Assembly (NCBI GenBank): GCA_003218885.1
Contig: QHOV01000092.1
Coordinates: forward strand, 1 to 33,895
Reading direction: 5' to 3'
DNA from: Verrucomicrobiota bacterium
GTDB taxonomy: Bacteria; Verrucomicrobiota; Verrucomicrobiia; Chthoniobacterales; UBA10450
Length of the DNA stretch: 33,895 nucleotides
Shown: in pieces, positions 5,670-32,483 of the stretch
How the letters are laid out: every line of letters begins with the position of its first letter
Position numbering within the stretch: the first letter of the stretch is position 1
Notes under the pieces: generated by a model
Told to the model about the DNA's origin: nothing
What the model saw: only the letters and a program-made list of their open reading frames with translations
Database searches by the model: none
Program-made: the position numbers and the translations under genes

Positions 5670-8282
5670 ATGGCCGCAAAGCGAAAAGCGACGCCGAGAG
5701 CATCCTCCTCGCGAGTGAAAACGAGTGGCACAAAATCGTCGCAATCAAAATCAACCAAGCAAAATTTGAGTTGCCCGATTGTGGGCATCGGCGGCTCGGC
5801 TGGTGGGTTCGAAGCGGCCATGGAGCTGTTGCAGAATTTGCCGCCGAGAACCGGTATGGCTTTTGTGATCGTGCAACATCTCGATCCGCATCACGCCAGC
5901 CGGCTTCCGAATTTGCTCGGAAAAATGACCGCAATGCCAGTCAAAGAGGTTGCGGGAACGACCACGCCGAAACCGAACACCGTTTACGTCCAACCACCGA
6001 ACAAGTGTGTAATTGCGAAGGACGGCGTGCTCACTCTGGTCCACCGAACAGAGAGACTCAACGTCGCAATCGATCATTTTTTTGAGTCGCTCGCTGAAGA
6101 ACACGGGTCGCGTGCGATCGGCATCGTGCTCTCCGGAACTGGGAGCGACGGCACGGCCGGTCTGCGCGCGATCAAAGCAGCTGGTGGTTTGACGTTCGCC
6201 CAAAATCAACAGAGCGCGAAGTTCGACGCGATGCCGCGGAGCGCGATCCGTGCCGGCTTCGTCGATCTTGTTCTGACGCCGCGCGAAATTGCCCGCGAAA
6301 TCGAGCGCATCGCCGATCATCCCTACATCCGGCGGCCACTGAGCGATCCGGAGGAAATCGAGAAAGCCGCCTATCGCCAGGCGGACGATCTGGGCCGCAT
6401 CTTTCTGTCGCTAAAGAAGCAAATGGGTGTCGATTTCAGCGCCTACAAGGAAAGCACGCTGATCCGGCGGATCCAACGGCGAATGGCGCTGCACCGGATC
6501 GAAAAGATCAGTCAATACGCGCGGTTCCTGCGCGACAACAAAAAGGAGATCGAAGCGCTTTTTGACGATCTGCTCATCAACGTGACGCGCTTTTTTCGGG
6601 ACCAAGCACTGTTTCGCGCTTTAAAGAAACGTTTTCTGCCGGCGCTGCTCAAAAACAAAAGCAAAGATCGGCAACCTGAGTTGCGCGCGTGGGTGCCGGG
6701 CTGCGCGACCGGCGAAGAAGTGTATTCGCTCGCCATTTGCATTCTGGAAACGCTCGGCAGCCGCCTTTCCAAAATGCGCATCCAGATTTTCGGCACCGAT
6801 CTGAGCGAATCGGTGATCGAACACGCGCGGCTGGGAATTTATTCGAGCGCAATCGAAAAAGACGTGTCGTCTGCGCGATTGAAACGATTTTTCGTGAAAC
6901 GGGACGGCACTTACCAAATTCATCGCAACGTGCGCGACATCTGCACGTTCGCGCGACAAAATATTACAGCCGATCCGCCTTTCTCCCGGCTGGATCTGAT
7001 CAGTTGCCGCAACGTGCTCATTTATCTGAGCCCGGAATTGCACAAGCGCTGCATCCCGCAGTTTCACTACGCGCTCAACGCTGACGGCTATTTGATTCTC
7101 GGGCCAGCCGAATCGGCCGGCCTGTACGATGAGCTTTTCAAATTAGTGGACAAGAAAAACAAAATTTACGCGAAGATAGCGGGGACGACGCCGCGCATGG
7201 CGAACCTCATCCCGCAGGGCGGCCTTGAACTCGCGCACTTCGGGCCCAGATTGACAGCCGCTGCTGGCGCAAACTTCGGTGGTGACCTTTTAAAAGTGGC
7301 CGACCGCATCATGCTCGGCACCTACGCGCCGGCGGCGGTGGTAATCGATCAGGACATGCACGTGCAACAGTTTCGCGGCCGCACGGACCTGTTTCTCGAA
7401 CACGCGCCGGGTCCGGCGACATTCAATCTCCTCCAGCTTGCGCGGCCATCTCTGGTCGCAGATTTGCGCGCCACGATTCGTCGGGCCATCAAAACGGACA
7501 AACCCGCCCGGACAGAGCGCGCGAAAGTGAACCTTATGGGCAGAAGCCGCGAAATAAATATTCAGGCTGTGCCATTCAAAATCCCCGAGTCCGGCAAATC
7601 GTGGTTCCTGGTTATTTTTGACGAGACCACCAAAGGAACCAAGGGAGAGAAACTGCCGCGGGCGCTGGGAAAAACGGCTGCGCAACGCGACGTGGCTGAG
7701 CTGCGTCGCGAATTGGCCGCTTCCAAAGAGTCGTTGCAAGGCATCATCGAAGAGCAGGAGGCGACCAATGAAGAGCTGAAGTCGGCCAACGAAGAAATTG
7801 AGTCGAGCAATGAAGAATTGCAATCGACCAACGAAGAACTCGAGACGGCGAAGGAAGAATTGCAATCGACCAACGAAGAGCTGACCACGCTGAACGAAGA
7901 GCTGAGCAATCGAAACCTCGAGATGATGCAGCTGACCAACGAACTGAACAATCTGCTGGCCAGCATTCAAATGCCGATCGTGATGGTGGACAATGCGTTG
8001 ACGGTGCAACGCGCAACGCCTGCGGCACGGGGCGCTTTTAATATTCTGCCCACCGACATCGGCCGTCCGCTGAGCGAGTTGCGGCCAAACATTGACGTGC
8101 CCGATTTGGACAACATTTTGCGCGAAGTGATCGAAACCTTGGGTACGCGCGAGCGCAAAGTGACCGATAAAAGCGGCCGCAAGTATTCGCTGCGGGTCCG
8201 GCCGTATCGCACGACCGACAACAAAATCGACGGAGCCGTTCTTACGCTGGTGGATATCGATGGAACGAAGAAAAGTGATTAA
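5670..8282 (+). CDS. CheB-CheR-PAS hybrid chemotaxis-type signalling protein
   Basis: This 870-residue cytoplasmic protein fuses the two receptor-modifying activities of chemotaxis. After a basic Ser/Lys-rich tail (1-33), a CheB methylesterase domain spans about 34-220, with the triad Ser43 (GGSAGG), His70 (IVQHLDPHH) and Asp160 (SGTGSDGT). A CheR methyltransferase domain spans about 235-505: an N-terminal helical region, the SAM-binding GCATGEE at 344-350, FGTDLSE, and SCRNVLIYL. A PAS-like segment (about 543-650) precedes a long coiled coil at about 675-765 built from NEELxSxNEE repeats, then a second PAS domain (about 765-865). No receiver domain precedes CheB. The last 23 bases overlap the next gene, a PAS histidine kinase, so the two are translationally linked. 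Such hybrids usually act in non-motility sensory pathways. No chemoreceptor or flagellar gene is nearby. Confidence 0.93.
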   Translation: MAAKRKATPRASSSRVKTSGTKSSQSKSTKQNLSCPIVGIGGSAGGFEAAMELLQNLPPRTGMAFVIVQHLDPHHASRLPNLLGKMTAMPVKEVAGTTTPKPNTVYVQPPNKCVIAKDGVLTLVHRTERLNVAIDHFFESLAEEHGSRAIGIVLSGTGSDGTAGLRAIKAAGGLTFAQNQQSAKFDAMPRSAIRAGFVDLVLTPREIAREIERIADHPYIRRPLSDPEEIEKAAYRQADDLGRIFLSLKKQMGVDFSAYKESTLIRRIQRRMALHRIEKISQYARFLRDNKKEIEALFDDLLINVTRFFRDQALFRALKKRFLPALLKNKSKDRQPELRAWVPGCATGEEVYSLAICILETLGSRLSKMRIQIFGTDLSESVIEHARLGIYSSAIEKDVSSARLKRFFVKRDGTYQIHRNVRDICTFARQNITADPPFSRLDLISCRNVLIYLSPELHKRCIPQFHYALNADGYLILGPAESAGLYDELFKLVDKKNKIYAKIAGTTPRMANLIPQGGLELAHFGPRLTAAAGANFGGDLLKVADRIMLGTYAPAAVVIDQDMHVQQFRGRTDLFLEHAPGPATFNLLQLARPSLVADLRATIRRAIKTDKPARTERAKVNLMGRSREINIQAVPFKIPESGKSWFLVIFDETTKGTKGEKLPRALGKTAAQRDVAELRRELAASKESLQGIIEEQEATNEELKSANEEIESSNEELQSTNEELETAKEELQSTNEELTTLNEELSNRNLEMMQLTNELNNLLASIQMPIVMVDNALTVQRATPAARGAFNILPTDIGRPLSELRPNIDVPDLDNILREVIETLGTRERKVTDKSGRKYSLRVRPYRTTDNKIDGAVLTLVDIDGTKKSD

Positions 8283-10056
8283 GCAAAAACAGGCAGCGAG
8301 ACGAAAGATGTCTCGTCGCGTAAATAAAAAGCACCGGGCAAAGCGTGATGGCCAAAACCGGGATGGTGCCGTCCGACGCAATCCCAAATCCATTCGAGCA
8401 GCCACGAAAATGACGAACGGAACGCCCGGGACGGTCAGGAAGAATGGCGCGCCCATTCGTTCCAGGCGCGCACCAGCGTTCCGGAATCCAAAGACCGAAC
8501 TGGAAGCCGCTATTCAGCGCTTTGTCGATCTTTACGATTTTGCGCCGATCGCGTACGTCAGCTTCGACCGCGCCGGACGGATTGAGGAAGCCAATCTGGC
8601 GGCGACCGAGCTTCTGGGCGACCCGCGAGATTTATTAATTGGCCGGCCCTTCGCGTTCTACGTGGGCGATTTGGATTCTTTGCTGCGGCACTTGCTTTAT
8701 TGCCGCACCTCGCAGCAACAGGTGGAGACGGAATTAGAATTGAAGCCGCGAAAAGGCGAACGGATTCCGGTGCTACTTCGTAGCGCGCCAATCACTTCGA
8801 CGACTAGAAATGGCGCTTTGCTCTATCAAACCGCCATCGTGGATTTGAGCGAGCGTAAACGTGCGGAGGAAGCGTTACGCGCCAAGGAGGCCGAGTTGGA
8901 AGCGATCATCAATCGCACGCCTTTCATGCTCACCCGTTGCAGCCGCGATCTTCGCTACCGATTCGTCAGTCGCGCGTACGCGGAAATGCTTGGCCGCACA
9001 CCGGAAGAAATCGCTGGCAAGCCGATCGTTGAAATCATGGGCGAAGAGGGTCTGAAGACAATTTCTCCCTACCTTGAAAAGGTGCTGAAAGGCCACACGG
9101 TGGAATACGAAGCGGAAGTATCTTTTCGAGGGGTCGGAGCCCCTTGGCTGCATTCTGTTTATACGCCGGACCGGGATGCGAAAGGCAACGTAGTTGGATG
9201 GTTCGCTTCCATTACTAATGTCGCCCGACGCAAAAGTGCGGAATTAGCTTTGCAAGAGTCGAAAGAGCTGCTGGAAGAGCGCGTGCGCGAGCGAACACAC
9301 GAGTTAGACGCGGCAAATACAGAATTAAAAAACGAGATCCAGCGTCGCAAGGGGCTGGAAGGAGAGATCCTTGCTGTTTCCGACCGGGAGCAACAGCGGC
9401 TGGGTCAGGAATTACATGACGGAATTTGCCAACACCTCACCGCGGTCGCATTCATGGCGCGCTCGGTCGCGTTGCGTCTGAAGAACCATCGTGTCATCGA
9501 AGTAAGTGATATCGAGAAAATTGCGCAGCTAGTAAACCAAGCTGCGAGCGACATGCGCGATCTTTCCCGCGCTTTGCATCAGAGCGACGTCGACGCGGCT
9601 AAACTGGCCGCTGCATTGCAAGATTTGGTTGACCGGGAAATCTGGAGAGTGCCCTGCCGGCTGGAAGTCAAACCATCATTTCATATCGAGGATGACGCAG
9701 CCGCAGCGCAGCTCTATCGGATCGCGCGCGAAGCGGTCATCAACGCTAACAAGCATGCGCAGGCGCGGGAAATTGTCATTAGACTGGAGCGATTGCCAAG
9801 GGGAATGGTTTTGCGCATAACCGATGACGGTGTCGGATGTTCAAATGGGCCGAAATTGGCGCGCGGCCTGGGTTTTCACATCATGAATTACCGCGCTCAA
9901 GTGATGGGCGGCCGTTTGGACATTGAGTCTCCAAAACGAGGCGGCACGCGTGTGTCCTGTTATTTACCGAATAAGGTAGTACAATCGCGCAAGAAAGAAA
10001 ACGCCGGCTCAGGGCTCCCAGGGAAAATCGCAAACGCATTGGCGGCCTTGATCTAA
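8260..10056 (+). CDS. PAS/PAS sensor histidine kinase, NarX/DegS type (HisKA_3)
   Basis: The product has 598 residues and no transmembrane segment, so it is a soluble sensor. A very basic N terminus (about 1-75) precedes two PAS domains (about 85-200, ending ALLYQTAIVDLSERKRAEEA, and about 210-325, ending SITNVARRKSAELA), then a coiled coil. The dimerisation domain has REQQRLGQELHDGICQHL with phosphoacceptor His386, typical of HisKA_3 kinases. The HATPase domain shows the N box around REAVINANKHA (490-500), the G1 box DDGVG (522-526) and GLGFHIM. This class pairs with NarL/FixJ regulators, and one follows 62 bases downstream. The first ATG lies inside the preceding gene; a second ATG at 8308 is also possible, giving a shorter basic tail. 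Confidence 0.9.
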   Translation: MERRKVIKQKQAARRKMSRRVNKKHRAKRDGQNRDGAVRRNPKSIRAATKMTNGTPGTVRKNGAPIRSRRAPAFRNPKTELEAAIQRFVDLYDFAPIAYVSFDRAGRIEEANLAATELLGDPRDLLIGRPFAFYVGDLDSLLRHLLYCRTSQQQVETELELKPRKGERIPVLLRSAPITSTTRNGALLYQTAIVDLSERKRAEEALRAKEAELEAIINRTPFMLTRCSRDLRYRFVSRAYAEMLGRTPEEIAGKPIVEIMGEEGLKTISPYLEKVLKGHTVEYEAEVSFRGVGAPWLHSVYTPDRDAKGNVVGWFASITNVARRKSAELALQESKELLEERVRERTHELDAANTELKNEIQRRKGLEGEILAVSDREQQRLGQELHDGICQHLTAVAFMARSVALRLKNHRVIEVSDIEKIAQLVNQAASDMRDLSRALHQSDVDAAKLAAALQDLVDREIWRVPCRLEVKPSFHIEDDAAAAQLYRIAREAVINANKHAQAREIVIRLERLPRGMVLRITDDGVGCSNGPKLARGLGFHIMNYRAQVMGGRLDIESPKRGGTRVSCYLPNKVVQSRKKENAGSGLPGKIANALAALI

Positions 10057-22037: not shown

Positions 22038-23201
22038 CTAACGAATAGTCACCGGGCCAGCTTCTGCCTCATCGCGTTGCGGCTTTGCAATCGGCTGGGA
22101 TTTGGGCGGCGTGATCTTCACCCAGCCCGCTTCATCAAAGAACCACGAGCGGCGTTCCAGTTTAACAAAAATGGCGGACGCAGATGAAAAGATGGAGACC
22201 GGAATGGTGAGTCCGCCCGCGAAAGCGTTTCCGCAATATTGTGCCTCAGCGATGCAGTCCAGCGAGCTCGAGTCCAGCATTTCAATACCTGAAGACCGGG
22301 CCGGGATGCGCACCGTCATACAACGCAACGCGCCGGCTTCGTCCCGTCCCAAAACGAAAAGCGTCGGTTCGGACATGCGCATGGCTTTCGGGGAGAGCCG
22401 CAGCTCTACGCGAAGCGAGTGAGGCAGCCTGAAAACTGAAGTAATTGAGCCATCGGCGATGGTTTTATCGCGCGCGCCAAGTTTGACCAGACGCTCCGGC
22501 CGACCAGCATATCCGAGAAATCTTTTCCGCGATAATTTGAGTTGCGTTTTGTGACAACGAATCGCCCGCAGCTTGGTCGCTGCTTCGATGTCGGATTGGC
22601 AGATCGTTTCTGCATGATCAAAGAACGCGAGGCTCCTGCCGTGAACAACATAACTCCAGACGGCCGTCTGTCCGGTCGCCACCGGGTCCGAAAAAGATTC
22701 GCTCAAGACAAGCCGAAGCATTACTGCGAGCGCGCTATGGTCGGGATGCGTATCAGAAATCGACGGCACGAGAAGATCCGTCGGTCCCCAATCAGCAATG
22801 ATTGCTGCAAAGCGCTCTAGCGCAGATTGACCGCCGCACATTAACATGGCGCTCAATTTTTGGTCGGGTAAACCCAGAAAACACGCCGCCGAACCGTGCA
22901 TACCCAGAACACGCAATGCCGCGAGCGCTTCTGTACGCCGCAACCTTCCCCAACGCCTGCGGTCGTTACCGTTCAGGCGCCATTTGCGTTCGAGCACGCG
23001 TTGCGGCCAAGGATTATCGTCGCCGTCCGTAACATAGACGACACGAACCACTGCACCGGCGCTAACTGCTCGTTGCAGAAGAATGCTGCATCCGAGCGAT
23101 TCATCGTCCGGATGCGGTGCGAATAGCAACAAGCGAGAACGCGAAGTAAAGGCTGGAACCGGCACGGCTAAGTCTTCTAGCAGAAGCGCAGCCAAAGGCA
23201 A
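22038..23201 (-). CDS. PIG-L/LmbE family N-deacetylase with C-terminal extension
   Basis: The N-terminal 230 residues are a PIG-L deacetylase domain: LLLFAPHPDDESLG with the zinc and catalytic motif HPDDE (30-34), the Asp-rich VYVTDGDD, RRTEALAALRVLG, and SISDTHPDHSAL, whose histidine is the third zinc ligand. The family removes acetyl groups from N-acetylglucosamine on lipids or small molecules. The last 150 residues are beta-rich, end in FFDEAGWVKI, and are not part of the core domain. It starts 17 bases after the FabD-glycosyltransferase stop, so both are one transcript; this suggests a glycan or glycolipid pathway. Confidence 0.85.
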   Translation of the reverse strand: MPLAALLLEDLAVPVPAFTSRSRLLLFAPHPDDESLGCSILLQRAVSAGAVVRVVYVTDGDDNPWPQRVLERKWRLNGNDRRRWGRLRRTEALAALRVLGMHGSAACFLGLPDQKLSAMLMCGGQSALERFAAIIADWGPTDLLVPSISDTHPDHSALAVMLRLVLSESFSDPVATGQTAVWSYVVHGRSLAFFDHAETICQSDIEAATKLRAIRCHKTQLKLSRKRFLGYAGRPERLVKLGARDKTIADGSITSVFRLPHSLRVELRLSPKAMRMSEPTLFVLGRDEAGALRCMTVRIPARSSGIEMLDSSSLDCIAEAQYCGNAFAGGLTIPVSIFSSASAIFVKLERRSWFFDEAGWVKITPPKSQPIAKPQRDEAEAGPVTIR

Positions 23202-23218
23202 TGCCAGAACTCCTATCG

Positions 23219-25852
23219 TTATGGCTGCGGCCGGGAGTATTTCTCGGGGAGAAAATCCCGATCCACTGCCTGTGCCCAGAGAAAAGCGAGTTGTGTTCTT
23301 GATGACGTTTGCACAAAAGTGTGTCCGCCCGGCGCGAGAAACCGCGCACCGTCATATGGCGTTCCGTCCAGCATTCCTCTCACAGGGCCCTCGCGTGCGA
23401 TAATCTTGTAAGGCGCGGGGATCACAACTTCGAACTCCATCCGCCTGCCGTCGGTTGCAGAGGGTTTCAAGAACCTGCCAGCTACCTTCAAATCGTCGCC
23501 GACAGGAATATAATTTTTCCAGATAAATTTTTTGGCCGTGGGGGGCATTCGGCCCTTCATGACCGCGACGCACGTTTGAGTCTCAACGGCGCGCTCGGCG
23601 GCGTTATCGGCTACAAGTCCACGCTTAAGGCGCGCCAACATGATCGATTCCGTGACCGGCCAAAAGCAGCGCTGCCGAAAGATGGTTTCGCCTTTGCAAT
23701 CGAGAACGTAACCACCGGGATCGGTCAATCTTAAAACGCCACGGAGCAAACTTGTCTCGATTTGAGCGCCGTTGATCCAAAACGGGTGCGTGACAATCAC
23801 GAAAGAAAAATCGATCAGAGCGACAAACGCAGGCAAAGGAACCCGCCGCAGATAATGGCTGACATGCAAGTCGTGCTTCGCCAGGTAAGAAGACACGATA
23901 AGTAAAGCTCCGCTTAGCAGAGTGAATGCGAGAGGATAAAATGGAAGATAATCCTGGCGACTGCGCAGGTTCCAAAAACTGTGCAGAGCTGGCACATAAA
24001 GACCGCAAATCAGAAAGATGAAAACACGCCGAAACGCCGTTACCGAGTCAGGAACCGCGTGAACGATTCGCCGCGCAGCGTAAATGACTAAAGGAAATGT
24101 GATTGGGAAAATGATGATCCACCAAGGTGGATGATTTCTGAGGGCGAGCTGCGGCAGCAAGTTATGGTCAAAATTGTAATAGCGAAAATCGCGCCACAGA
24201 CCGGCAACTGCGAACGCGACAGCAATCGCACCGGGAACTGACGCGGCTGCACCAATAAAAGCTGCCGTACAGCGCGCGAGATGTGGCCATGATTGACCAA
24301 GTTGTTTTCTCCCCACAAGGAAGAGCGCAATCACCGCACTGACCACAAGCGTTAGCAACAACAGAATCGTCTTCATCGAAACGCCGAAGCAGAACCCCAG
24401 CAAAAGGCCAGCGATCAACGCTCGAGGTACGGCAAGCGCGCCGCTAAGCAGCGTGGCGACGCATAAAAGCCAGAGTGGCGCCCAGAGGTTGTCAGTCCGA
24501 AATTCGAATGAGATGAAATGATACTTCGGATAAAGGCCAGTCAAAATGACCGCCCAAAGCCCGGCGCGCCGGGAAAAAAGTAATTCCCCAATTCGATAAG
24601 TGCACCACGCTGCGACAAAATACAGCGGCAACAGGATGAAGCGCATCCAGTAAAGAATGGTGGGCCGGTCGCCAATCAGTCCAAAAATTGGCGCGAACAT
24701 GATCTGGAAGAGCGGCATATGATTATCGAAAACATCGCGGTACTGAATGAAGCCGCGTGCCCAGGCCCAGATCACGTGCATATGCTGCGACTCGTCGGTA
24801 TCGAATCGGGACTGCATCATGTTCGCGAGCATGATTACAATCATGAGCGTGAAAAGAATCGCAGCCGTCATAAACTCCGCTGACCCGGACATGCCAAAGT
24901 ACTCGGCGCCCCGTTGCGCGAGCGATCTGCCTCGTGAAGATGCAGGAGGACTTATCGATGTTGCAGATTCCAGTGCCATCTCTGGGTGAATCCTAGCGGG
25001 GCGAATTTTTAAACCAGCCAGCACACCGCCCGGACCCAGTTCGACAAAAAAATCGCAGCCAAGTGCTGCTAGCCGCTCCACGCAATCCATCCATCGCGCC
25101 GTGCCTGTGACCTGATCCTGCAAGGTGCGGCGAATTTCGATCGGCGTTCCCGCTTCTTCGCCAGTCACATTACTAATCACAGGAAAACGCGGCGGTTGCA
25201 CCGTGACATGCTGAAGCGCCGCCCCCAACCTTTGATAAGCGCTTTCCATCAAACGTGAATGATATGCGCCGGCAACATTGAGCAGCGTCGCGCGGCGAAT
25301 TCCATATTCCCTGGCCACGCCGACTGCTGCTTCCACTTTCGCTAGCTCACCCGAGATGACGATCTGGCCGGGCGCATTGATGTTCGCAATATCGACGTCT
25401 TCATCCGCTGCAAGCTGGCGCACCACGTTTTCATCTACGCCGATCATTGCCGCCATTGCGCCGTTTGTCGCCGCGCAAGCTTCATCCATCAATTCGCCGC
25501 GTCGCTGCACAAGCTTCAGGCCACTCGCAAAATCAAAAGTGCCAGCCGCCGCATGAGCGGTCATCTCGCCTAACGACAATCCGGCCGCGCCACCAATGGG
25601 AAAATCGCCTGCCAGTTCGCGCAGGACCGACAAGCACGCGAGCCCGTGAACGAAAAGTGCAGGCTGGCAGTTTGAAGTCTTCGTCAATTCGTCGATCGGA
25701 CCGTTCCACGCAATTTGGCTTAACTTCCGCTCGAGAATTTCGTCCCCTTGCTGAAACAATTCCGCCGCGCCAGGAAATTGCTCGGCGACATCACGTCCCA
25801 TTCCGACGCTTTGCGCGCCCTGGCCTGCGAAAAGCAGTGCGATTTTTTTCAT
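23219..25852 (-). CDS. fusion of malonyl-CoA:ACP transacylase (FabD) with a GT-C type membrane glycosyltransferase
   Basis: This single 877-residue frame has two unrelated halves. Residues 1-300 are FabD: LLFAGQGAQSVGMG, GLSLGEMTAHA with nucleophile Ser93, AGAYHSRLM with catalytic His198, and FFVELGPGGVLAGL. FabD loads malonate onto acyl carrier protein for fatty acid synthesis. Residues about 325-740 form a membrane domain with 10 or so helices beginning MTAAILFTLMIVIMLANMMQ; DTDESQHMHVIWAWARGF in the first loop resembles the acidic motif of dolichol/undecaprenyl-phosphate-sugar transferases (GT39/GT83 superfamily). A soluble tail follows. The junction (about 300-325) is Ser/Arg-rich. In-frame ATGs at 24979 and 24892 could give a separate glycosyltransferase. 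Both domains have all expected motifs, so neither looks dead. Confidence 0.85.
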   Translation of the reverse strand: MKKIALLFAGQGAQSVGMGRDVAEQFPGAAELFQQGDEILERKLSQIAWNGPIDELTKTSNCQPALFVHGLACLSVLRELAGDFPIGGAAGLSLGEMTAHAAAGTFDFASGLKLVQRRGELMDEACAATNGAMAAMIGVDENVVRQLAADEDVDIANINAPGQIVISGELAKVEAAVGVAREYGIRRATLLNVAGAYHSRLMESAYQRLGAALQHVTVQPPRFPVISNVTGEEAGTPIEIRRTLQDQVTGTARWMDCVERLAALGCDFFVELGPGGVLAGLKIRPARIHPEMALESATSISPPASSRGRSLAQRGAEYFGMSGSAEFMTAAILFTLMIVIMLANMMQSRFDTDESQHMHVIWAWARGFIQYRDVFDNHMPLFQIMFAPIFGLIGDRPTILYWMRFILLPLYFVAAWCTYRIGELLFSRRAGLWAVILTGLYPKYHFISFEFRTDNLWAPLWLLCVATLLSGALAVPRALIAGLLLGFCFGVSMKTILLLLTLVVSAVIALFLVGRKQLGQSWPHLARCTAAFIGAAASVPGAIAVAFAVAGLWRDFRYYNFDHNLLPQLALRNHPPWWIIIFPITFPLVIYAARRIVHAVPDSVTAFRRVFIFLICGLYVPALHSFWNLRSRQDYLPFYPLAFTLLSGALLIVSSYLAKHDLHVSHYLRRVPLPAFVALIDFSFVIVTHPFWINGAQIETSLLRGVLRLTDPGGYVLDCKGETIFRQRCFWPVTESIMLARLKRGLVADNAAERAVETQTCVAVMKGRMPPTAKKFIWKNYIPVGDDLKVAGRFLKPSATDGRRMEFEVVIPAPYKIIAREGPVRGMLDGTPYDGARFLAPGGHTFVQTSSRTQLAFLWAQAVDRDFLPEKYSRPQP

Positions 25853-25900
25853 TCAATCTTGATCATCGTTGCCCGGCTTGGACGATTCAATCGAGAAGTC

Positions 25901-25932
25901 GGGTTAGGCGCGCCCGGCGGTCGGACCCTACC
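25901..25932. repeat. short palindromic repeat in the fabD/nuoD divergent intergenic region
   Basis: GGGTTAGGCGCGC ... GGACCCTACCA shares its ends and GC-rich centre with the repeat at 12126-12171. It lies between the divergent starts of the FabD fusion (25852) and nuoD (26019), so it overlaps the space that must hold both promoters. Confidence 0.4.
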
Positions 25933-26018
25933 AATTTGAGCTTGCATGGGCTGGTTCACTCGCCAGCGTAAATGTTACGTTTTGACACTCCAACGCTTTT
26001 AACTTTGTAACTGCTTTC

Positions 26019-27278
26019 ATGCCATTTACGACGCGCGAAATTGAATTGCCCGACCCAGTCACGCGAGTGGCCGCAGCCGACGCGGCACTGCGGGAGCCTG
26101 CTGACGCCGACATCGGCGAGAAGATGGTGCTGAACATGGGACCATCGCATCCGGCGACGCACGGTGTTTTGCGACTCATACTCGAGCTCGATGGCGAGAT
26201 CATTACCAAGGCCACTCCGGACATCGGTTTTCTCCATCGCGGCGACGAGAAGATCGCCGAGAACATGCAATACAACCAGTTCGTGCCTTACACCGACCGG
26301 CTCGATTATCTCGCACCACTTTCGAACAACGTGGCTTACGCGCTGGCGGTGGAAAAATTGATGGCCTGGGAAATCCCGCCGCGTGGAAAAGCGATTCGCA
26401 CCATTTGCTGTGAAACGTCGCGTATTTCGTCGCACCTGATGGGTCTTGGCGCGATGGCGCTCGATCTCGGCGCGATGACGGTCTTCCTCTACACGTTCAC
26501 CGAGCGCGAAAAACTTTATGACCTTTTCGAGCTGCTCACCGGCGCGCGTTTTACCACTTCCTACACACGCGTAGGCGGGCAAATCCGCGATTTGCCCGAG
26601 CACTTCATCCCGCAACTGAAAAAATTCCTCGATGACTTCGGTCCGAGTCTCGATGAATGCGATAAGCTACTCACACGCAACCGCATTTTTGTCGATCGAA
26701 CCAAAGACATCGGCGTCATTTCGAAGGAGCGCGCGATTGCTTACGCTCTTTCCGGCCCGAACCTGCGCGGGAGTGGGATCGAGCACGACCTGCGGCACAA
26801 ACATCCGTATCTCGACTACGACAATTACGATTTCGACGTGGTGATTGGCAGCGCGGGCGATTGTTATGATCGTTATCTGGTGCGGATCGAGGAGATGCGC
26901 CAAAGCGTGCGGATCTTGCGTCAGGTGATCGACAAACTGCCCGGCGGACCGATCAATGTCGCGGATTGGAAAAACATGACTCCGCCCAAGTCACGGGTAA
27001 TGACGAAGATGGAGGAGTTAATTCATCATTTCATTGTGGTGACGGAAGGGCTCGACGCGCCGCCGGGCGAGATTTATTTCGCGGCCGAAAATCCGAAGGG
27101 CGAGCTTGGCTTTTACATCAATAGCAGAGGAGGCGGCGTGCCGTATCGTTTGAAAATTCGCGCTCCATCGTTCGTGAACCTCAGTATCCTGCCAGAGCTT
27201 CTGCCTGGTTGCATGGTGAGCGACGTGCCCGCTGTGTTAGGGAGTCTGGACTTCGTCATGGGGGAATGCGACAGATAA
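26019..27278 (+). CDS. nuoD: NADH-quinone oxidoreductase subunit D
   Basis: The 419-residue 49-kDa subunit of respiratory complex I forms part of the quinone-binding cavity in the peripheral arm. LNMGPSHPATHGVLRLILEL, FLHRGDEKIAENMQYNQ, YTDRLDYLAPLSNN, SYTRVGGQIRDLPEHF and the C-terminal DFVMGECDR are hallmark blocks, including the HPATHG loop and the Tyr of YTDRLDY. It is a stand-alone NuoD, not a NuoCD fusion. It is the first complex I gene here; nuoA, nuoB and nuoC are not upstream, where a divergent fabD fusion lies. The short N-terminal tail of 33 residues is less conserved. Confidence 0.97.
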   Translation: MPFTTREIELPDPVTRVAAADAALREPADADIGEKMVLNMGPSHPATHGVLRLILELDGEIITKATPDIGFLHRGDEKIAENMQYNQFVPYTDRLDYLAPLSNNVAYALAVEKLMAWEIPPRGKAIRTICCETSRISSHLMGLGAMALDLGAMTVFLYTFTEREKLYDLFELLTGARFTTSYTRVGGQIRDLPEHFIPQLKKFLDDFGPSLDECDKLLTRNRIFVDRTKDIGVISKERAIAYALSGPNLRGSGIEHDLRHKHPYLDYDNYDFDVVIGSAGDCYDRYLVRIEEMRQSVRILRQVIDKLPGGPINVADWKNMTPPKSRVMTKMEELIHHFIVVTEGLDAPPGEIYFAAENPKGELGFYINSRGGGVPYRLKIRAPSFVNLSILPELLPGCMVSDVPAVLGSLDFVMGECDR

Positions 27279-27565
27279 CCGTGGCAATCTGGCAATCGGC
27301 CTCGAGATTTGTGCTCGTGCTCTTGCTCGTGCTATGCGTTTCCTGTTCCAGCAAACGCATCACCAAAGCGAACGTAGATCAGGTGACGGAAGGCATGTCG
27401 AAGAAACAGGTCGAATCGATTTTGGGCCCGCCCACGTCTCTTAGCACTGAGGATTTTGTGATCATGAAAAAAACGACCTACGTTTATCGCCAGGGCAAGG
27501 ACACAGTAACGGTCATTTTTAAAGACGACAAAGTGCAGTCAAAAGACAGCACGTTGTCCGATTAA
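27266..27565 (+). CDS. small lipoprotein of BamE/SmpA-like fold inside the nuo operon
   Basis: About 99 residues from ATG 27266: a hydrophobic signal (FVLVLLLVLCVSC) with a probable lipidated Cys (the preceding CVS is a weak lipobox), then ITKANVDQVTEGMSKKQVES, ILGPPTS and TTYVYRQGKDTVTVIFKDDK, a BamE/SmpA-type pattern in which the VxxGMxxxxVxxxLGxP motif is diagnostic. BamE assists outer-membrane protein assembly; short relatives have unknown roles. It starts within the last codons of nuoD and lies between nuoD and nuoEF, so it is in the complex I operon. A GTG at 27281 is an alternative start. Confidence 0.7.
   Translation: MRQITVAIWQSASRFVLVLLLVLCVSCSSKRITKANVDQVTEGMSKKQVESILGPPTSLSTEDFVIMKKTTYVYRQGKDTVTVIFKDDKVQSKDSTLSD
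27311..27334 (+). repeat. 6-bp tandem repeat encoding the lipoprotein signal core
   Basis: GTGCTC, GTGCTC, TTGCTC, GTGCTA in frame encode Val-Leu pairs of the hydrophobic signal region. The unit is the same hexamer, GCTCGT-like, seen at 29579-29608. Confidence 0.6.
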
Positions 27566-27579
27566 TCGACCACTTTTCG

Positions 27580-29565
27580 GTGGACTCGACGAGCATAGCT
27601 GTTCCCGCCGAGCTGGAGCGGAAAATGGATGAAGCGATTGCGCGCTATCCGAGCGATCACCGGCGAAGCGCAGCCATGCCGCTGTTGCATTTGTGGCAGG
27701 AACACTTCGGCTTCATCAGCGACGAAGCCGTGTTATGGATCGCGAAGAAGCTGGGCTTGCAACCGATCAATATTCTGGAGCTGGTAACATTCTATCCAAT
27801 GTTTCGCCAGAAGCCGGCTGGCAAAACCCATATCCGCGTCTGCCGCACACTCAGTTGCGCCATGGCTGGCGGCTTCGAGCTCATGGAGAATTTGTGTGCT
27901 GCCCTTGAAATCCAGCGCCCGCCGGATGGCGACGGAATTCATGACCCCATCGCCGTTAGCGCGGATGGTAACTACAGCGTCGAGTTTGTTGAATGCCTGG
28001 CAAGCTGCGGCACCGCGCCCGTGTGCATGATTGGCGAACAGCTGTATGAGCAACTCGATCCAAATTCGATTGCCGATCTTCTCCCAAATCAAACATCAAA
28101 CATCAAACGTCAAACATTCCCTCACCCTCTCGAACACCGTTTGGTTTACAAAAACATCGGACGCACGGATTGGACAACCGACATCGATTGTTACCTGCGC
28201 GATGGCGGTTACGAGCAGTTGAAGCAAGCGCTGACCATGTCGCGCAGTGACATTGTCAACAAAGTCAAGAACTCCGGTCTTCGCGGCCGCGGCGGAGCGG
28301 GATTTTCCTGCGGTCTGAAATGGAGCTTCATCAAACCGGACGAAAAGCGGCCCGTCTATCTGATTTGCAACGCCGATGAATCAGAGCCGGGCACGTTCAA
28401 GGATCGCTACATCATTCACGAAGACCCGCATCAGCTGTTGGAAGGAATCTTGATTTCATGTTACGCGCTCAACGCGCGCACGGCTTACATCTACATGCGA
28501 GGCGAATTCCCAGAGGGCGCGAAAATCCTCGAACGTGCCATCGAAGAAGCGCGGCAACACAATCTTCTCGGGAAAAACATTCTTGGATCCGGATTTGACG
28601 TCGAAGTTTACATTCATCGCGGCGCGGGCGCTTACATTTGCGGGGAAGAAACAGGTTTGATTGAATCGCTCGAAGGCAAGCGCGGTTATCCGCGAATCAA
28701 GCCGCCGTATTTCCCGGCGGTGCTTGGCCTTTACATGTGCCCGACAATCGTCAACAACGTCGAAACACTCTGTGCCGTAAAACACATTATCGCCATGGGC
28801 GGCGCGGAATATGCGTGCCTCGGCCGGCCTAACAACACTGGCACGCGCATTGTGTGTGTAAGCGGTGATGTTCAGCGACCAGGTTACTTCGAAATTGAAG
28901 TTGGGGCGGTGACTATGGGCCAGCTGATCTATGAGATGGCTGGTGGCTTGACACCGGGCCGAGAATTAAAGGCAGTCATTCCGGGCGGAAGTTCTGCCAA
29001 GGTTTTGCGAGCCGGCGAACGATTTAAACTCAAGCAGAGACAGGCCGACGGATCGACAGTCGACCGGGAGCTGTCGATCGAGGAGATCCCGATGGACTTC
29101 GACTCGCTGACAGCGGCGGGCTCCATGGCCGGTTCGGGTGGTGTGATTGTGCTCGATGATTCCCGAGACATGGTCTGGGTTCTCAACAACATCAACGAGT
29201 TTTATGCGCATGAAAGCTGCGGCCAATGCACCCCTTGTCGGGAAGGTTCGCTTTGGATGAAGAAAATCACCGACCGCATGCTGCGCGGCGGCGGCGTTGT
29301 GGAAGATCCGCACACGCTCAAGACCATTGGCGACAACATCGCCGGGCGCACCATCTGCGCTTTCGGCGAAGCCTGCGCATGGCCGACGCAAAGTTTTGTC
29401 GAGAAATTTCCGGAGGAATTCGCGACCCGCGCCCAGAAACCAGTCCCTCCGCCGCTGCCGCCCGAATACACGCCGGAAGCATTAATCGAGGAGCAACAAA
29501 TCCCGACCGCTCCGCTGGCGCACGATCCCGGTTGGGAAAGAGCCGGGGCTGATGCGGTGACTTGA
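27580..29565 (+). CDS. nuoEF: fused NADH-quinone oxidoreductase subunits E and F
   Basis: The product is a single 661-residue chain. Residues 1-165 are NuoE: the 2Fe-2S ligands Cys88-x4-Cys93 and Cys139-x3-Cys143 are complete. A linker at about 165-185 follows. The rest is NuoF: the FMN-binding GLRGRGGAGF, NADESEPGTFKDR, the NADH/FMN-binding GAGAYICGEETGL, and the 4Fe-4S ligands Cys547, Cys550, Cys553 and Cys593. Together they form the NADH-oxidising tip of complex I. The linker contains ten residues encoded by a 7-bp tandem repeat. The frame opens with GTG 27580, 14 bases after the lipoprotein stop; an ATG at 27625 is an alternative. Confidence 0.95.
   Translation: MDSTSIAVPAELERKMDEAIARYPSDHRRSAAMPLLHLWQEHFGFISDEAVLWIAKKLGLQPINILELVTFYPMFRQKPAGKTHIRVCRTLSCAMAGGFELMENLCAALEIQRPPDGDGIHDPIAVSADGNYSVEFVECLASCGTAPVCMIGEQLYEQLDPNSIADLLPNQTSNIKRQTFPHPLEHRLVYKNIGRTDWTTDIDCYLRDGGYEQLKQALTMSRSDIVNKVKNSGLRGRGGAGFSCGLKWSFIKPDEKRPVYLICNADESEPGTFKDRYIIHEDPHQLLEGILISCYALNARTAYIYMRGEFPEGAKILERAIEEARQHNLLGKNILGSGFDVEVYIHRGAGAYICGEETGLIESLEGKRGYPRIKPPYFPAVLGLYMCPTIVNNVETLCAVKHIIAMGGAEYACLGRPNNTGTRIVCVSGDVQRPGYFEIEVGAVTMGQLIYEMAGGLTPGRELKAVIPGGSSAKVLRAGERFKLKQRQADGSTVDRELSIEEIPMDFDSLTAAGSMAGSGGVIVLDDSRDMVWVLNNINEFYAHESCGQCTPCREGSLWMKKITDRMLRGGGVVEDPHTLKTIGDNIAGRTICAFGEACAWPTQSFVEKFPEEFATRAQKPVPPPLPPEYTPEALIEEQQIPTAPLAHDPGWERAGADAVT
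28088..28115 (+). repeat. 7-bp tandem repeat (ATCAAAC)4 in the NuoE-NuoF linker
   Basis: Three perfect units ATCAAAC and a fourth GTCAAAC in register, encoding NQTSNIKRQT near residues 170-179. It lies exactly between the NuoE and NuoF parts, where separate genes would have had an intergenic gap. Confidence 0.85.
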
Positions 29566-29578
29566 AATGAAACCGCTT

Positions 29579-29642
29579 ACTCGTGCTCATGCTCGTGATC
29601 GTGCTCGAGATTTTTCGATTAGGAGCACGAGCACGATCACGA
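29579..29642. repeat. 6-bp tandem arrays forming a 14-bp perfect stem before nuoG
   Basis: Left units: ACTCGT, GCTCAT, GCTCGT, GATCGT, GCTCGA (29579-29608). Right units: GAGCAC, GAGCAC, GATCAC (29623-29640). The arm 29594-29607 is the exact complement of 29628-29641, with a 20-base loop. The stem ends eight bases before the nuoG ATG (29650). This hairpin in the nuoEF-nuoG spacer could shape mRNA stability or nuoG translation. Confidence 0.8.
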
Positions 29643-29649
29643 AAAGATA

Positions 29650-31389
29650 ATGGCCGATCAAACTCCATCACCGCAGTTGTTCAACGTCCAGATTGACGGC
29701 GTATGGCATCAGTTTCCGAAAGGCACGCGCGTGATCGAGGCATGCGCGCGGGTGGGTGTTTTCGTGCCGCGCTATTGCTATCACAAAAAGCTCAGTTCGC
29801 CCGGCAACTGCAGGATGTGCTTGATCGAAATGGGCTTCCCGAGGCTCGGCCCGGATCGCAAACCCGAGCTCGGTGCCGACGGCAAACCGATCATCAACTG
29901 GATACCGCGTCCGCAAATTTCCTGCGCCCAAGACGTATCCGAAGGCATGGCGGTTCGCACCAATTCGCCCCTCGTGAAGGAATGTCAACGCGGTGTGATG
30001 GAATTCCTTCTTATCAATCATCCGCTCGATTGCCCGATTTGCGATCAGGCCGGCGAATGCCGTTTGCAGGAATTCAGCGTCGATTTCGGCAACTCCAAAT
30101 CGCGTTTTCTCGAGAACAAAGTCAAGAAGCCCAAAAATGTTGTGCTCGGACCGCGGGTCACGCTGGATGATGAACGTTGCATTCTCTGCTCGCGGTGCAT
30201 CCGCTTTTGTCAGGAGATCGCACACGATGACGTCCTTGGGTTCGTCGATCGCGGCAGTTACACGGCGCTAACTGCGCATCCTGGCAAACGGCTCGAGAAC
30301 AATTATTCTCTTAACACCGTTGATATCTGCCCGGTGGGCGCGCTCACCTCGACTGATTTTCGTTTCAAGATGCGCGTCTGGTTCCTGAAAGAAACAAAAA
30401 GCATTTGCACCAGTTGCGCAACGGGCTGCAACACCATCATCGGCACGCGCGAAGACGTCATTTACCGGCAGACACCGCGGGAAAACGATCACGTCAACTC
30501 CTGCTGGATGTGCGATTACGGACGGTTGAACTTCAAATATCTCGAAGCCGAAAACCGTTTGCTCGAGCCGCAGATTCGATCCGACGGAAATCTGATCGCC
30601 GTGGATTGGCCGATGGCAATCGCGGAGGCGGCGCTTCAGTTAAAGCAGTTCGCCGGTCATGAAATTGCCATCATTGCTTCCGGCCGCATGACTAATGAGG
30701 AGCTTTGGCTTACGTCGCAGTTGGCGAAATCCTTAGGCGTGCAGTGGATAGACATCGTCCCGCGGCGCGGGCCCGGTGATGACATTTTGCTCAGCGAAGA
30801 CCGCAACCCGAACACAAACGGCGCGCGCTTGATTCTTAGACCGACGTCTGAGCCCGGTGCGAAACTCACGGCGATTGCTGAAGCTGTAAAATCCGGAGAA
30901 GTCAAAGCGCTGATGATTTTGAAAGAAAACACGATGCATCTTGGCATATCCGTCGAACAACTCGCGCGCCTCCCTGCACTGATCGCGATGAATGTTTTGT
31001 CGAACGAGGCGACTGAAAAAGCGACTGTGGTTCTGCCCGCGTGCAGTTTTGCCGAGAAACGCGGCTCAATGATCAACGGCAAAGGCCGATTGCAACGATT
31101 GAATCGCGCCGTGCGGCCGCCCGGGAACGCGCGCGATGATTGGGAAATCTTGCGTGATTTGCTCCAGGCAGTCGGTGGAGGCGATTCGCTTTCGTCGGTG
31201 GATGATGTTTTTCGCCGCATCAGCGAGACAGTCCCGCAATTCGCCGGGTTGACCTTGAGTAAAATCGGCGATCTCGGCGTCCACATTTTACAAATGGAAG
31301 AATTGCCGACGATGCGTCCGAGCGACGAAGAAAACATCGAGCAAGCCGTCGCGATCCAGGCAAGGCGCCGCGCAGTCCGCTCACACTGA
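29650..31389 (+). CDS. nuoG: NADH-quinone oxidoreductase subunit G
   Basis: The 579-residue subunit carries several clusters in the peripheral arm: 2Fe-2S (Cys43, 54, 57, 92), the His124-Cys128-Cys131-Cys137 4Fe-4S site in HPLDCPICDQAGEC, and a second 4Fe-4S site around Cys177, 180, 183 and Cys227 (ICPVGAL). A CxxCxxxCx27C motif at 253, 256, 260 and 288 matches the N7 cluster of enterobacterial NuoG. The C-terminal molybdopterin-oxidoreductase-like domain is short relative to the 700-900 residues common in this subunit, but still ends with a normal stop 1 base before nuoH. The upstream hairpin leaves little room for a Shine-Dalgarno sequence. Confidence 0.95.
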   Translation: MADQTPSPQLFNVQIDGVWHQFPKGTRVIEACARVGVFVPRYCYHKKLSSPGNCRMCLIEMGFPRLGPDRKPELGADGKPIINWIPRPQISCAQDVSEGMAVRTNSPLVKECQRGVMEFLLINHPLDCPICDQAGECRLQEFSVDFGNSKSRFLENKVKKPKNVVLGPRVTLDDERCILCSRCIRFCQEIAHDDVLGFVDRGSYTALTAHPGKRLENNYSLNTVDICPVGALTSTDFRFKMRVWFLKETKSICTSCATGCNTIIGTREDVIYRQTPRENDHVNSCWMCDYGRLNFKYLEAENRLLEPQIRSDGNLIAVDWPMAIAEAALQLKQFAGHEIAIIASGRMTNEELWLTSQLAKSLGVQWIDIVPRRGPGDDILLSEDRNPNTNGARLILRPTSEPGAKLTAIAEAVKSGEVKALMILKENTMHLGISVEQLARLPALIAMNVLSNEATEKATVVLPACSFAEKRGSMINGKGRLQRLNRAVRPPGNARDDWEILRDLLQAVGGGDSLSSVDDVFRRISETVPQFAGLTLSKIGDLGVHILQMEELPTMRPSDEENIEQAVAIQARRRAVRSH

Positions 31390-31390
31390 G

Positions 31391-32455
31391 ATGGATTTTG
31401 CCTTCGTCGTCACGTCACTGCTGAAAATCGTCGGCATCCTGGTAGTAATTCTGACCATGGTTTCCTATGCCGTTTACGCCGAGCGACGCGTGAGCGCGTT
31501 TATTCAGGACCGACTTGGGCCAAACCGCGTCGGCCCTGCTGGTCTATTTCAACCAATCGCGGACATGTTCAAATTGCTGCTGAAAGAAGATTTCACGCCG
31601 CGCTCGGCGAACACATTTTACTACTGGCTCGCGCCATGTCTGGCTGTGATGCCGGCCATCATCACGATTGCTGTGGTCCCGTTTGGCAGCACCCTGTTTG
31701 GTGTTCCCATGGTGATCGCCGATGTGAACGTGGGAATCCTCTTCGTATTCGCCATCGCCTCGCTCGGCGTTTACGGAATCGTCATCGGCGGTTGGGCATC
31801 GAATTCCAAATATCCATTCCTCGGCGGCATCCGTTCCAGTGCGCAAATGCTTTCCTATGAACTTTCACTCGGGCTAGCGGTAATCCCCGTTTTTCTTTTA
31901 GTTGGAAATTTACGCCTGACCAGCGTGGTGCGTTACCAGATTGAGCACGGCTGGTTCATCGCGCCGTTTGTCGGCGACTGGACGAATCCGTGGAAGTGGC
32001 TGCTTGCGATTCCGATGATCATTTCCTTCCTCGTGTTCATGATTGCTATTTTTGCGGAGACAAACCGCCTGCCGTTCGACCTGCCGGAAGCAGAGCAGGA
32101 ACTCGCCGGCGGTTACAACATCGAATATAGTTCGATGAAGTTCGCCTTATATTTTCTCGGCGAATACGCCGCGATGATCACCGGTTCGGCCGTCATCGTC
32201 ACATTGTTTTTAGGAGGCTGGCATTTCCCAGGAATCCCCGACGGCTCGCATGGATGGATCTTCGGCCTGATCAACATCGCAGTGTTCTTCGCGAAAGTCG
32301 CCGCCTTGATTTTTATTTTTATGTGGGTGCGCTGGACGTTGCCCCGTTTTCGCTATGATCAACTTATGCGGCTCGGTTGGCTCTTCTTTTTCGAAATTGC
32401 GCTTGTGAATATTTTTCTTGTCGCAGCAATTCTTCCTTACACTTCAAGGTTATGA
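31391..32455 (+). CDS. nuoH: NADH-quinone oxidoreductase subunit H
   Basis: The 354-residue polytopic protein forms the quinone-site interface of complex I with about eight membrane helices. YAERRVSAFIQDRLGPNRVG in the first loop, ADMFKLLLKEDF, and IFAETNRLPFDLPEAEQELA, which is the conserved acidic/quinone loop, are diagnostic. GYNIEYSSMKFALYFLGEYA follows. It starts one base after nuoG stops (TGAGATG), consistent with tight coupling. Confidence 0.97.
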   Translation: MDFAFVVTSLLKIVGILVVILTMVSYAVYAERRVSAFIQDRLGPNRVGPAGLFQPIADMFKLLLKEDFTPRSANTFYYWLAPCLAVMPAIITIAVVPFGSTLFGVPMVIADVNVGILFVFAIASLGVYGIVIGGWASNSKYPFLGGIRSSAQMLSYELSLGLAVIPVFLLVGNLRLTSVVRYQIEHGWFIAPFVGDWTNPWKWLLAIPMIISFLVFMIAIFAETNRLPFDLPEAEQELAGGYNIEYSSMKFALYFLGEYAAMITGSAVIVTLFLGGWHFPGIPDGSHGWIFGLINIAVFFAKVAALIFIFMWVRWTLPRFRYDQLMRLGWLFFFEIALVNIFLVAAILPYTSRL

Positions 32456-32459
32456 ATCT

Positions 32460-32483
32460 GGAAACTAGGAAGCCAGGAACAAT
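32460..32483 (+). repeat. degenerate 8-bp tandem repeat between nuoH and nuoI
   Basis: GGAAACTA, GGAAGCCA, GGAACAAT in register, in the 74-base gap after nuoH. The gap also holds GAAGCCA matched by TGGCTTC downstream. It is a weaker example of the junction repeats. Confidence 0.4.

Follow-up and report, generated by a model that had tools for sequence, protein, structure and literature searches.

FabD is the malonyl-CoA:ACP transacylase, a cytoplasmic enzyme that charges acyl carrier protein with malonyl groups, and its gene is normally essential. The family is described by TIGR00128, an equivalog model with a curated cut-off, and by the structures 1mla, 2cuy and 3hjv. The second group of proteins of concern here is that of the ArnT-like GT-C glycosyltransferases (PF13231; ArnT structures 5ezm and 5f15), which have a membrane fold with an acidic motif after the first helix. 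The closest loci are those of the same Verrucomicrobiota genus (e.g. G032, G007 and G034), where fabD, a glycosyltransferase gene and a PIG-L gene are found with the same order and orientation as in the window, the whole stretch of 33,895 nucleotides analysed here. Unlike in the window, fabD and the glycosyltransferase gene are separate in these loci, and fabD keeps its full tail and its stop. A literature search for a fusion between FabD and a glycosyltransferase gave nothing relevant.

The 877-codon frame and its parts

A single frame runs from an ATG at 25852 to a stop ending at 23219 on the minus strand of the window, without internal stop and without any N, and encodes 877 amino acids, with MKKIALLFAGQGAQ at the N-terminus and PEKYSRPQP at the C-terminus (Table 1). 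The first-pass annotation had read it as FabD joined to a polytopic GT-C type glycosyltransferase, and the frame is indeed present at these coordinates and encodes FabD followed by a PMT_2/ArnT-like GT-C membrane protein. All the FabD motifs that it listed, GQGAQ, GLSLGE, YHS and GPGGVL, are found, and so is the acidic motif DTDESQH, but at residues 351–357 and not from about residue 325. The FabD motifs were placed within residues 1–300, where they do lie, but genuine FabD sequence covers residues 1–281 only. Residues 282–291 form the linker of the apparent fusion, and Met292 opens the glycosyltransferase. A frame of 877 codons holding two complete domains is far more than chance would produce, and the question is how the genes got joined.

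Table 1. Coordinates of the joined frame, its parts and the downstream gene in the window.
Feature	Position	Strand	Evidence
FabD (malonyl-CoA:ACP transacylase), residues 1–281, cut at the junction	25010..25852	-	TIGR00128 over cut-off; gap-free 94% DNA identity to G032 over 25010–27278
Junction, 85 bp of G032 absent	25009..25010		Alignment with G032; no microhomology
Linker of ten codons, KIRPARIHPE, out-of-frame fabD end and intergenic spacer	24980..25009	-	DNA alignment with nine relatives; pLDDT <50
GT-C type glycosyltransferase (PMT_2, ArnT-like fold), normally its own gene from ATG 24979	23219..24979	-	PF13231; G032 orthologue; Foldseek match to ArnT 5ezm
PIG-L family de-N-acetylase, downstream partner of the glycosyltransferase	22038..23201	-	PF02585, 80 bits

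The match to TIGR00128 extends over residues 3–284 with 276.8 bits against a cut-off of 260.9, so that the window shares nearly the whole profile with known FabD proteins. The catalytic motifs GQGxQ, GxSxGE, YHS, DQVT and GPG are all present, and they are conserved with the relatives save for one GPG variant (L086). In contrast to known FabD proteins, that of the window is without the C-terminal strand and helix, which take up about 30 residues after GPGGVLAGL and are present in 10 of 10 aligned relatives. Their place is taken by an out-of-frame linker and a membrane protein. The total loss compared with G032 is 33 residues, and the lost segment of the G032 protein can be aligned as far as the Thermus FabD 2cuy. 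In a model of the G032 protein this segment forms a strand (290–294) and a helix (297–311) with a pLDDT of about 92, whereas the corresponding segment of the 877-residue model is disordered, with a pLDDT below 50 at residues 265–306. The alignment behind the FabD half of the latter model is shallow and its confidence low, and hence stability is not read from it. It had been suggested that this may be the only FabD, and this is supported, the frame being the sole FabD match in the draft assembly (217 contigs, 82% complete), with one fabD per genome in the family. Substitution counts in FabD are 15 synonymous and 10 nonsynonymous on the window branch and 9 and 5 on the G032 branch; they give no sign of relaxed selection since the fusion, though none would be expected after a recent event.

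The glycosyltransferase half of the 877-residue model is well modelled, with many helices. Pfam PMT_2 (PF13231) matches residues 378–533 with 32.9 bits against a cut-off of 26.1, and the acidic D-x-DE-x-QH motif, located after the first helix as in ArnT, is kept in nearly all homologues. Foldseek matches are ArnT and STT3-type oligosaccharyltransferases, and the model resembles ArnT 5ezm with an E-value of 2.3e-4 and a TM-score by target of 0.55. The sequence identity to ArnT is only 13%, glycosyltransferases of the window type are normally encoded by a gene of their own, and sugar transfer from a lipid-linked donor is putative. The orthologue in G032 (L003:1531–3288) is 92% identical and has its own start. 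Of the internal starts proposed earlier, 24979 is the true glycosyltransferase start as judged by the relatives, where the protein begins with MALES or MALEA in eight orthologues and with MVPES in one.

The order of a glycosyltransferase followed by PIG-L is also found in L080, L083 and L085, where the glycosyltransferase is relocated. Ahead of several relocated copies lies a decayed piece of the fabD 3' end, corresponding to about residues 254–313 (L079:2803–2910, L080:2822–2953, L082:2795–2963 and L085:2792–2963), and none could be detected in L083. The pieces are broken, and none of them is a fusion. As sequence scars they suggest that the glycosyltransferase cassette was copied or moved from behind fabD.

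Separate genes in the relatives

The whole 877-residue protein was searched against 58 related genomes, and in those of the genus the FabD part and the glycosyltransferase part each gave a match of their own. The junction was read in nine relatives with complete sequence (G032, G007, G002, G008, G026, G034, G010, G009 and G013), a tenth (G031) having an N-filled gap at this position. In all nine, fabD has about 30 more residues after GPGGVLAGL (LLRRTRKD.DVISVSDAESVRKCAEKI.AQN) before its stop, and a few nucleotides separate this stop from the start of the glycosyltransferase. The two reading frames differ in eight of the nine; in G002 they are the same but the fabD stop lies between. The nearest relative, G032, with the same gene order and a DNA identity of 94%, has a FabD longer by 33 residues, a stop, and the glycosyltransferase 13 nt downstream in another frame, starting at an ATG equivalent to 24979 of the window. 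Named genomes were scanned as well, and in the 40 loci obtained fabD is separate wherever a full copy precedes the glycosyltransferase. A confident fabD was found in 70 of 83 family genomes, one in each, with an open frame of 199–457 amino acids in all except the window genome (877 amino acids), and the same join was not found in an independent relative among these 70. The first-pass annotation had held that a join would fall if relatives always had two genes, and this is what is seen in every relative with a readable junction.

The 85-bp deletion

The window is collinear with G032 and about 94% identical, with gap-free matches over 22832–25009 and 25010–27278. Exactly between these, with about 2.2 kb of gap-free alignment on each side, G032 holds 85 extra bases. 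The placement of the break is unique, and fabD DNA alignments from 27 other genomes of the genus end at or before the junction. The missing piece corresponds to 28 and a third FabD codons, and behind it the last five FabD codons, together with the stop, fall into another frame. Since 85 leaves a remainder of 1 on division by 3, the frame shifts into that of the glycosyltransferase and continues past the old stop.

One of two alternatives in the first-pass annotation, that neighbouring genes had been merged, was thus right in kind, while the other, a real bifunctional protein, is not supported. The lost stop codon by which the merger was explained is not what is found: what sets the window apart is the loss of 85 bp shortly before the fabD end, which shifts the frame so that the stop is no longer read, and a simple point loss is ruled out. 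Slippage, whether between direct repeats or at a stable hairpin, is ruled out as well: there is no microhomology at the junction, and the deleted segment, taken together with its flanks, shows no better folding than shuffled sequences (z +1.2). A join to a relocated glycosyltransferase copy with a fabD-tail scar is ruled out by the collinearity of the glycosyltransferase and both its flanks with G032, and only one such glycosyltransferase is found in the assembly, which also counts against it.

The window differs from G032 also at three intergenic sites (27278–27296, 27569–27584 and 29549–29678), where G032 has inserts (L062:9116–9260, 8712–8841 and 6238–6745). Two of these are self-complementary, one of the TTCGTCATT type, which is also present in G026, and one with a hairpin around GACGTGACGCAG. 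One of the three inserts is ORF-sized and flanked by inverted copies of a sequence that is also located at 32453–32479 of the window. NuoE and NuoF domains (PF01257, PF01512 and PF10589) lie together in one frame of 661 amino acids at 27580–29565, and unlike the FabD-glycosyltransferase join this one aligns gap-free to G032.

Deletions in sister draft genomes

Other draft genomes of the genus were examined for deletions that cannot be biological, with rpoB as a control gene. Exactly 85 bp are missing from within the single rpoB copy of G034 (L113), the same length as the deletion in the window, and the single copies of G033 (L114) and G017 (L115) lack 40 bp each. All three deletions lie within contigs, have no Ns and break the frame; no cell could live with such an rpoB, and assemblies of the genus therefore contain small internal deletions as artefacts. 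In the only fabD of G009 (L111) 49 bp are missing, among them the GLSLGE elbow that carries the catalytic serine; the only fabD of G025 (L109) lacks 19 bp, and both frames are broken. The fabD of G006:C78 (L110) has nine gaps of one or two bases and several stops, and is either poor sequence or a decaying gene. Most records of the genus among the relatives are '_curated' scaffolds of one soil study, and the window probably comes from the same project. For that study each sample was assembled on its own, mostly with IDBA-UD, and scaffolding errors were corrected afterwards (PMC6784897). The reads of the set that includes the records of the nearest relatives are deposited under BioProject PRJNA449266, and the proteome of the study is PXD013110.

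Origin of the joined frame

The fusion is likely to have been produced by a small local deletion in the assembly, and from the sequence comparison it would best be filed as no real feature, pending reads. The organism should have fabD, a 13-nt spacer, the glycosyltransferase gene and the PIG-L gene as adjacent genes, fabD and the glycosyltransferase being separate as in every close relative. In the contig, 85 bp close to the fabD 3' end would have been left out, the remainder of fabD with its stop would be read out of frame, and the shifted frame would run on into that of the glycosyltransferase. The missing 85 bp, their loss in this genome alone, the separate genes of the relatives and the deletions in essential genes of sister drafts that cannot be biological are observed directly, whereas we infer that this particular deletion is an assembly error and not a real mutation. 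Some observations speak against an artefact. The assembly is not generally poor, as rpoB and dnaN of the window genome are intact and the rest of the window shows no frame-breaking coding indel against G032, only indels of 3 nt, a rate of frame breaks judged from the window, rpoB and dnaN only. In addition, there are no Ns at the junction, and only about a third of random deletions would bring two given frames together.

A true recent deletion in the sampled strain is, with all its forms taken together, possible but rather doubtful. If it were present in the strain or in a subpopulation, the glycosyltransferase might still be made from ATG 24979, which is its conserved start in the relatives, and the shortened FabD might work poorly, or intact cells or copies might make up for it. 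With an assembly that is 82% complete a second copy could be missing, but one fabD per genome throughout the family, and a gene that is normally essential, make this reading unlikely. It is quite improbable that the deletion instead gave a working FabD-glycosyltransferase protein, with FabD on the cytoplasmic side of the membrane and both activities supplied. This would be a very recent in-frame fusion in one soil Verrucomicrobiota strain, whose only FabD would have become the cytoplasmic head of a membrane glycosyltransferase while still supporting fatty-acid synthesis, and it is equally improbable. The frame is fully open with the catalytic FabD motifs and the acidic motif all kept, it holds the sole FabD of the assembly, and the window branch has no excess of amino-acid changes compared with G032. 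The join is, however, unique in the family, the conserved C-terminal strand and helix are lost, the linker consists of an out-of-frame tail and spacer with a pLDDT below 50, and scars of the same kind occur in sister drafts in genes that cannot be broken. A conserved fusion family that tethers malonyl transfer to the membrane is highly improbable. The adjacency of fabD, the glycosyltransferase and PIG-L is kept in part of the genus, but the genes are separate in every readable relative, including the 94% identical G032, and without recurrence in an independent relative such a family is refuted within the sampled genomes.

Meaning for the organism and its genus

With the deletion taken as an assembly error, the living cell would have a cytoplasmic FabD and a separate ArnT-like membrane protein, followed by the gene for a PIG-L de-N-acetylase, and the membrane protein may take part in envelope glycan synthesis, as suggested by family membership. 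The 13-nt spacing in G032 indicates that fabD and the glycosyltransferase gene are probably co-transcribed, while a physical tie between the two activities is not supported. Small internal deletions of 19–85 bp recur in this genus, even in rpoB, and a missing piece that merges adjacent genes can therefore mimic a two-domain protein; domain fusions seen in a single genome of draft metagenome assemblies need to be checked against relatives. Both the FabD and the glycosyltransferase parts are ordinary members of known families, and if the deletion were real, FabD would be shown to tolerate the loss of its C-terminal strand and helix.
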